NCBI GenBank assembly: GCA_947074345.1
Contig: CAMTPH010000013.1
Location: 1 to 42,757 of the forward strand
From: an uncultured Bacteroides sp.
GTDB taxonomy: Bacteria; Bacteroidota; Bacteroidia; Bacteroidales; Bacteroidaceae
Reading direction: 5' to 3'
DNA length: 42,757 nucleotides
Shown here: positions 17,393 through 18,340 of the stretch, in pieces
Layout: every line of letters starts with the position of its first letter
Position numbering within the stretch: the first letter of the stretch is position 1
The notes under the pieces: model-generated
What the model saw: the letters and a program-made list of their open reading frames with translations, nothing else
Databases searched by the model: none
Told to the model about the DNA's origin: nothing
Translations under genes and position numbers: made by a program

Positions 17393-17465
17393 GCACTCTT
17401 AGCTCAGTTGGTAGAGCAACTGACTCTTAATCAGTGGGTCCAGAGTTCGAATCTCTGAGGGTGTA
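17393..17465 (+). tRNA. tRNA-Lys (anticodon CTT)
   Basis: A full cloverleaf of 73 nt to the discriminator base. The acceptor stem is GCACTCT with AGGGTGT (G1-U72 and one other wobble). The D arm holds AGCTCAGTTGGTAGAGC. Anticodon stem ACTGA/TCAGT encloses CTCTTAA, giving anticodon CTT (17426-17428). The T arm is CAGAG/CTCTG around TTCGAAT. The bases after discriminator A are CCT, so the final A of CCA is not encoded, unlike the tRNA-Arg at the window start. Confidence 0.97.
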
Positions 17466-17471
17466 CCTCTA

Positions 17472-17515: not shown

Positions 17516-17652
17516 TTTATAACTGCACAAGATTTTAAAGTTTACCACACTGTAGACGATAGATTAGAAGAAGATCTATCATCCATACCAAAGCAATTCA
17601 CTCCAGCTAACTCTTTTAATATTTTTGGTTTAACCACAATATTAAACATGTA

Positions 17653-17737
17653 TCAACCTAAATTAGGAATAGTTCCGAACTAGAGTCAACTTAATTTAGG
17701 AATAAGTATAAAATGAGTCAACCAAGTTCAGGAGTAT
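17653..17737. repeat. Three diverged ~20-bp direct repeats spaced 32-33 bp
   Basis: Copies start at 17653, 17686 and 17718: TCAACCTAAATTAGGAATAG, TCAACTTAATTTAGGAATAA and TCAACCAAGTTCAGGAGTAT. Copies 2 and 3 are preceded by GAG. Regularly spaced, diverged repeats without a gene resemble the multiple terminal repeats at one end of IS21-type elements; that assignment is inferred, and no transposase is present. The stretch 17516-17652 before them shows nothing recognisable. Confidence 0.5.
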
Positions 17738-17763
17738 ACTAATCAATAACAGCAATGAACATA

Positions 17764-17878
17764 TGCAGCAACACTGCAATCAGCATGCAATGCTACTGCA
17801 GACCTTTTGCATTGAGACTGCATCACCATTGCAATATCACTGCAAAGCCGTTTGCAGTGATATTGCAATGGTAGTACA
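17764..17878. repeat. 11-bp-phased TGCA array
   Basis: TGCA occurs at 17764, 17775, 17786, 17797, 17808, 17819, 17830, 17841, 17853 and 17864, with TACA at 17875. Ten steps are all 11 bp except one of 12. Only the tetramer and a loose AC/AT before it are kept; the other seven bases vary. The array ends 9 bp from the stop codon of the next minus-strand gene. It is either a worn 11-bp minisatellite or an array of sites on one face of the helix. A 39-codon plus-strand frame (17763-17882) spans it but has no sign of being a gene. Confidence 0.75.
17825..17872. other. Perfect 22-bp stem-loop inside the TGCA array
   Basis: Bases 17825-17846 are the exact reverse complement of 17851-17872, with loop GCCG. 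The inverted repeat is in register with the TGCA phase. It lies 15 bp past the stop of the minus-strand gene, so it could end that transcript, although no T-run follows on the minus strand. Confidence 0.75.
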
Positions 17879-17887
17879 GTGATTTAA

Positions 17888-18340
17888 TCAAATAGACCAA
17901 TCGGGACAAAGCTCATATTTGTCGAATAAAGGAGCAGATAAGCCACTGTTTTTGAATATAGCTATTATCTTTTCTTGCTCATTTGGCGAGATAAGTTGTT
18001 CGCCCTTTTGAGCATAATAAAAGACACGCTCGCACGAGAAGCAATTTATCACTTTAGATCTCACAGTATTATATTGACCTTTTGGCACAATATCAAAAAG
18101 AATCTTCATTCCACGAGCATAGCGCAATGGTGTATCACTACGAAAATGGATGCAAGTTTCGCCCGCTGCCACACGATTGACATAGGCAGGAGTTATACAC
18201 GACAAGACTTCTCTTGGCATCGCCAAATCTTCTTCATTCATTCGCGCAGCATGACTACGCAAACAGCGATTACTTTGTTCACATTGCTTTGCAGTAGCAT
18301 AGCAGTAAGCATATTGAAAGGGGATATCATCTATTTTCAT
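17888..18340 (-). CDS. Conserved hypothetical Cys-rich protein (resembles DUF6078)
   Basis: A 150-residue protein that I recognise only loosely as the DUF6078-like group found in Bacteroidales. The N-terminus IPFQYAYCYATAKQCEQSNRCLR has four cysteines in a spaced pattern (CYATAKQCEQSNRC) that could bind metal. A second Cys pair is in CFSCERVFYYAQKGEQL. No signal peptide or membrane segment. Its function is unknown. It stands alone: the 3' side is the TGCA array and stem-loop, the 5' side the terminator of the NagB-like gene. Confidence 0.65.
   Translation of the reverse strand: MKIDDIPFQYAYCYATAKQCEQSNRCLRSHAARMNEEDLAMPREVLSCITPAYVNRVAAGETCIHFRSDTPLRYARGMKILFDIVPKGQYNTVRSKVINCFSCERVFYYAQKGEQLISPNEQEKIIAIFKNSGLSAPLFDKYELCPDWSI

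Follow-up and report, generated by a model that had tools for sequence, protein, structure and literature searches.

The locus described here raises the question of why a palindromic tetramer, TGCA, should be repeated at nearly constant 11-bp steps between the genes of an uncultured Bacteroides sp. It lies in contig CAMTPH010000013.1 (assembly GCA_947074345.1), whose positions 1 to 42,757, the whole stretch of DNA that was analysed, are referred to as the window; the genome of origin (G000) comprises 3.1 Mb and is 84% complete. An earlier sequence-only reading had described the array, held that no gene type explains it and offered three guesses, namely a worn minisatellite, a protein-binding array or a mobile repeat family. 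The results presented below indicate that the array is probably the cognate DNA site of the protein encoded next to it, a member of the family DUF6078 (PF19555), which would bind it in a sequence-specific manner. The features of the locus, in their order along the window, are as follows.

17393-17467: tRNA-Lys gene, beyond the (A/G)TCAAC motifs on the side away from the array
17651-17744, forward strand: second repeat, three (A/G)TCAAC motifs 32-33 bp apart, adjoining the array
17764-17878, no strand: phased array of ten TGCA tetramers and a final TACA; the step is 11 bp except for one of 12 bp
17825-17872, no strand: inverted repeat with two perfect 22-bp arms (17825-17846 and 17851-17872), centred on the 12-bp step
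17888-18340, reverse strand: DUF6078 gene, 150 aa, with a PF19555 match; proposed cognate DNA-binding protein

The phased TGCA array is confirmed as real. Its tetramers start at 17764, 17775, 17786, 17797, 17808, 17819, 17830 and 17841 and, after the 12-bp step, at 17853 and 17864; the last of the ten ends at 17867, and the final TACA starts at 17875. With a chain defined by steps of 10-12 bp, the longest TGCA chain in the window had ten members, as originally described, compared with a maximum of three in 300 dinucleotide shuffles. Among the 256 tetramers combined with constant steps of 6-40 bp, TGCA at 11 bp was the sole combination in the window with a run of five or more. The perfect inverted repeat was also recovered; it has a 4-base loop and is self-complementary at 44 of 48 positions.

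Two parts of the earlier description had to be modified. A relaxed turn of B-DNA measures 10.5 bp. As the 11-bp step is slightly longer, the cores would drift by about half a turn across the array in naked DNA rather than all face one side of the helix. The stretch had further been called gene-free, and the array indeed lies between genes, but it is not isolated: it is found 9 bp past the stop codon of the DUF6078 gene, that is, just 3' of that gene.

The repeat unit and its recurrence

The recurrence of the array was assessed with a pattern of four TGCA tetramers at 11 bp. It matched 41 of the 301 genomes of the window's family, compared with five of 301 for a reversed control pattern, and the expectation that the array would recur in related genomes was therefore borne out. 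The two large control counts (G023 and G049) came mostly from tandem repeats of near-identical 11-mers; these are ordinary 11-bp minisatellites with ACGT-bearing units, present at many loci of one other genus (L330, L331). In the window's own genome, the four-unit pattern revealed one further TGCA array, on contig C139. When species genomes were scanned for seven TGCA units, at least 117 stretches were obtained, many of which were identical-unit repeats of unrelated bacteria, and arrays with divergent units were found chiefly in Bacteroides and Prevotellaceae.

Analysis of 90 divergent arrays highlighted the unit that is repeated. The bases on either side of TGCA alternate, with an orientation product of −1.19 at lag 1 and of +1.12 at lag 2. 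Identity of the 7-bp spacers is 24% at lag 1, the chance level, and rises to 60% at lag 2. From this alternation of the flanks and the likeness of next-but-one spacers, the true repeat is read as a 22-bp pair of half-sites, CTGCAA and TTGCAG, in opposite orientation. TGCA recurs every 11 bp because the middle of this half-site is palindromic, and the tetramer previously taken for the conserved core is not itself the recognised unit but the palindromic middle of an alternating hexamer. The array of the window is a degenerate member of this class; the alternation is weak in its own hexamers and is demonstrated over the 90 arrays.

Neither of two familiar repeat types fits these arrays. A minisatellite, worn or otherwise, consists of near-identical tandem units, but here adjacent spacers match only at the chance level. 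A CRISPR array was rejected since there are no identical long repeats with long unique spacers, the spacers being only 4-8 bases. Unit number is unequal in the similar arrays L046 and L074, so that units are both gained and lost. Exactly one 12-bp step was present in 25 of 94 distinct divergent arrays, and spacer types mirror across the step. Mirrored spacers matched at 3.32 of 7 positions (n = 62), no better than the 3.49 of 7 seen for unmirrored ones (n = 162), which favours repeated protein sites over one conserved hairpin.

Two further occurrences of phased TGCA were noted. A short array of 4-6 units recurs in several genera at an equivalent position between two genes (L017-L019, L021-L024, L027 and L032); in L022, neither gene has a Pfam match. 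The viral contigs L156, L160, L161, L166, L178 and L180 share a stretch in which six TGCA follow one another at 11 bp; it lies within related ORFs and is, as far as seen, unrelated to the arrays.

Arrays and half-sites of DUF6078 genes

The protein encoded beside the window array matched PF19555 with an E-value of 9e-34 (117.3 bits, cut-off 27), and the family cut-off was reached by all 22 members of alignment A2. PF19555 was found in 128 of the 301 genomes of the window's family and in five of 395 genomes sampled from the phylum, the window's own included. A tblastn comparison of the window protein with loci fetched by the TGCA pattern alone showed that DUF6078 adjoins arrays in other species. 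Contrary to the first impression, the array does accompany a particular gene type.

A total of 76 distinct DUF6078 loci were drawn from among the PF19555 matches listed, of all of which they form a part: nine met through TGCA arrays, 30 fetched and 40 chosen by PF19555, less three duplicates. A TGCA chain was located within 700 bp on the 3' side at 10 of the 76 loci and on the 5' side at one. Nine of these ten 3' cases belong to one clade of 11 (support 100/99), which includes the DUF6078 of the window; in the remaining two members, L223 and L235, the gene is followed by 22-bp arrays of a different kind. When no core was preselected, 22-bp periodicity (p < 0.02) was detected in 55 of the 76 3' flanks and in eight of the 76 5' flanks, including one false case each (L207 among the 55, a CT-rich simple repeat; L106 among the eight, where the gene lies at the edge of the locus and the signal is an artefact). 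The mean autocorrelation on the 3' side peaked only at lags 22, 44 and 66 (z = 14.9, 10.9 and 7.6), compared with z = 2.2 at lag 22 on the 5' side. Among the 3' flanks of other ORFs at the same loci, more than 300 bp from DUF6078, only 1 of 72 showed this periodicity. A bias toward having arrays is inherent in the nine loci that were reached by way of TGCA arrays; without them, 48 of the 67 protein-chosen loci pass the 3' test.

The 3' test was failed by 21 of the 76 loci. At L187 and L220 arrays are visible whose step is different, and L106 has an array 398 bp away. Arrays upstream of the gene were observed at L190, L191 and L193, as well as at L207 from the 55; these are not 3' UTR elements. 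L216, seemingly and by eye, has an upstream array, and L132 an upstream TGCA chain. At the other 13 failing loci, no clear array was seen on either side in the flanks inspected by eye. At the array-rich loci of the Prevotellaceae RUG11392 and UBA3294, no array-linked DUF6078 was seen.

Half-sites follow the protein clade, with TGCC/GGCA, GGAAAC/GTTTCC, GTACC/GGTAC, TGAAAA/TTTTCA, GTTTCCC/GGGAAAC and others in addition to the TGCA type. Dispersed arrays of four half-sites were counted in 22 same-genus genomes, and the presence of a clade refers to the matches listed, outside which lie four DUF6078 genes of G055, G191 and G269. Four-unit TGCA matches were found in G000 (10), G074 (18), G149 (66), G232 (117) and G298 (1) and in none of the other 17, and it is in exactly these five that a protein of the TGCA clade occurred among the matches listed. 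GGCA matches, with at most one mismatch, were obtained in G290 (24), G232 (24), G000 (19), G055 (18), G245 (10), G269 (7), G219 (6), G257 (2), G074 (1) and G149 (1) and in none of 12, with control counts of one each in G149 and G290. Among the matches listed, the GGCA clade was seen in G290, G232, G055, G245, G269 and G257 and not in G219, G074 or G149; G000 has a likely member, L217, without an array beside the gene. Forward GGAAAC matches numbered 80 in G091, 67 in G002, 23 in G290, 13 in G298, 11 in G269, 6 in G149, 4 in G257 and 1 in G032, with none in 14 genomes; the cognate clades were seen, again among the matches listed, in the first six of these and not in G257 or G032. In G232, the half-site of a related member has changed to GTAAC, and this genome has no GGAAAC and 17 GTAAC matches; elsewhere, GTAAC gave four matches in G298, one in G219 (where the control also gave one) and none in 19. 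G121, G135, G163 and G280 are without a PF19555 match and without any of the four array types. Array type tracks the cognate clade for TGCA, GGCA, GGAAAC and GTAAC and is nearly absent elsewhere, with G219, G257 and G032 as exceptions.

The second repeat of the window was also seen at other loci. GTCAAC motifs at 32-33 bp spacing adjoin, on one side only, arrays of three half-site types. Visual inspection showed them beside both TGCA arrays and beside eight of the 14 GGCA array loci of the window's genome; a profile (E 0.01) detected them next to the window array, at five of the 14 GGCA arrays and at four of 20 fetched G091 loci, some of which are seeds of the profile. The loci concerned are L316, L321, L323, L327 and L328 in the window's genome, L338, L351, L352 and L357 in G091, and L026.

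Four cysteines of the protein (C13, C20, C26 and C63) are invariant in 22 diverse members. The structure predicted from seven sequences had a mean pLDDT of 75.6, with about 88-95 per ten-residue block over residues 71-140 and lower values before. Of ten paralogs scanned, five matched an Xre-like helix-turn-helix (HTH) profile in a common C-terminal region, with a best E of 1.4e-4 and every match below the Pfam cut-off; the other five and the window protein gave no match. Structure searches with the DUF6078 model returned nothing significant, weak HTH rows appearing among unrelated ones. No transposase family was found in Pfam scans of the window protein and the 22 diverse members, and alignment A2 contains no conserved His pair. 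Judged by eye, the segment before a conserved Tyr pair varies with the half-site (CFSCER-type with CTGCAA, SRRT with GGCA and GRKN with GGAAAC), and within the TGCA clade changes of a Glu-Arg pair accompany altered half-sites in L220, L223 and L235. In Parabacteroides distasonis (L258, 1501-1674), the gene of a short hypothetical protein, WP_009275490.1, adjoins a KilA-N gene; over its first 37 residues this protein is 62% identical to the N terminus of the window's DUF6078, and it is perhaps a truncated paralog. The open-access literature searched contained no mention of DUF6078 or PF19555.

Proposed function and rival explanations

Among 83 placed intergenic arrays, 35 were located between convergent genes against a background of 100 of 478 (p 8e-5), and nine between divergent genes against 106 of 478 (p 0.018); a further 19 TGCA arrays inside ORFs of at least 130 aa were excluded, a part of which came from unrelated bacteria or lay in doubtful ORFs. 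The preference for 3' ends and convergent pairs would also suit arrays that act as RNA, forming 3'-end hairpins that end transcription or protect the message, with DUF6078 as an RNA-binding partner or merely linked. Alternating inverted half-sites are always able to pair, and the window array folds as RNA at −68 kcal/mol, compared with a shuffle mean of −37.9 (z −8.7). We nevertheless regard this explanation as unlikely, given that arrays lie upstream of the gene in one clade and between divergent genes in the nine cases above, that mirrored spacers do not co-vary, and that hairpins do not require a strict 22-bp step.

For seven loci of G091, the counterpart in the close genome G002 was sought. 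Six were queried by both flanks, of which four returned both, one a single flank and one no convincing match; the seventh, L352, aligned through from the left flank. The array was kept at all five comparable loci. Changed positions amounted to 2 of 358 in half-sites and linkers, 8 of 72 in four-base spacers and 84 of 1361 in flanks (spacer versus site, p 1.5e-5; site versus flank, p 4.6e-7). Four of the eight spacer changes represent one whole four-base spacer replaced (L352/L360, 4 of 4 bases), with the rest of the array unchanged. Exchange between arrays could keep the half-sites alike.

A mobile, REPIN-like system, in which DUF6078 would spread the arrays as non-autonomous elements and a role for the host would at most come second, is compatible with DNA binding and differs in purpose. 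It would account for cognate arrays at many unrelated sites, for several dispersed G091 arrays with one common internal architecture and unrelated flanks, and for arrays present in one species and missing at the orthologous site of another (L148/L111, L131/L095 and L136/L030). However, the array was kept at each comparable locus of G091 and G002, Pfam scans found no transposase domain in DUF6078, and no clean empty site or target duplication, as the insertion of a MITE would leave, was found in orthologous-site comparisons that include distant species pairs and array ends that are not clean; we consider this explanation slightly less probable still. A functionless worn minisatellite or chance TGCA run would fit the varying unit number of L046 and L074, but is highly improbable in view of the shuffles, the half-sites kept while spacers change, and the gene-linked recurrence.

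The most economical account, as we infer from the sequence comparisons, is that DUF6078 proteins bind DNA and that each paralog has phased arrays of its own. The protein, with a putative Cys4 zinc-type N-terminal half and a putative HTH-like C-terminal half, would bind each half-site, and neighbouring copies would load cooperatively along the array. The resulting large assembly of protein and DNA would sit for the most part downstream of genes and within convergent pairs, most likely as a roadblock, terminator or boundary, functions that have been proposed for REP/BIME repeats. Through the array next to its own gene, the protein would regulate its own expression. A protein-binding array thus appears to be the best supported of the three original guesses, and the idea of a dispersed repeat family also found support.

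A broader proposal is put forward more tentatively, as one that may well prove wrong: DUF6078 could represent a new class of repeat-keeping system based on a non-transposase DNA-binding protein. Paralog specificity would shift via a few recognition residues, genome-wide phased arrays would follow, and one cell could contain several protein/array sets that are blind to one another and that shape the ends of transcription or the structure of the chromosome. If the DNA-binding reading is true, it provides a testable function for a common family, PF19555, so far of unknown function. It would further offer a natural library of protein/site pairs, with dozens of paralogs whose half-sites can be read and whose variable segment is short, from which changes of DNA specificity could be studied.

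Comparison with known systems

Iterons and multi-site repressors are operator-site arrays for cooperative DNA-binding proteins. The DUF6078 arrays resemble them in helical phasing, inverted half-sites and a site adjoining the regulator's gene; they differ in lying mostly 3' of genes and genome-wide, with an own half-site for each paralog. The ACGT minisatellites of G023 and G049 likewise show an 11-bp step and a palindromic tetramer, but their units are near-identical, and neither genome is among the PF19555 carriers listed.

The genomic pattern matches that of the RAYT (TnpA-REP) transposases with their REP, BIME and REPIN repeats (PMC2817692, PMC3116915, PMC8266576). Both systems combine a gene with cognate palindromic repeats that lie alongside it and dispersed between genes, BIMEs and DUF6078 arrays alike alternate in orientation, and in both gene and repeats co-evolve, with repeat abundance tracking the presence of the cognate gene. 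Three differences emerge. DUF6078 is an unrelated protein in which no HUH/Y1 transposase domain was detected. The RAYT gene is flanked on both sides by inverted repeats, whereas the 22-bp signal of DUF6078 is 3' at 55 of 76 loci and 5' at eight, one artefact included. Finally, REP hairpins measure 20-40 bp, while DUF6078 arrays are helically phased rows of 5-7-base half-sites. Since the defining transposase was not found, the DUF6078 system is not filed under RAYT/REP. The comparison suggests that gut Bacteroidales contain several parallel dispersed-repeat systems, comparable to REP/RAYT and built on an unrelated protein.
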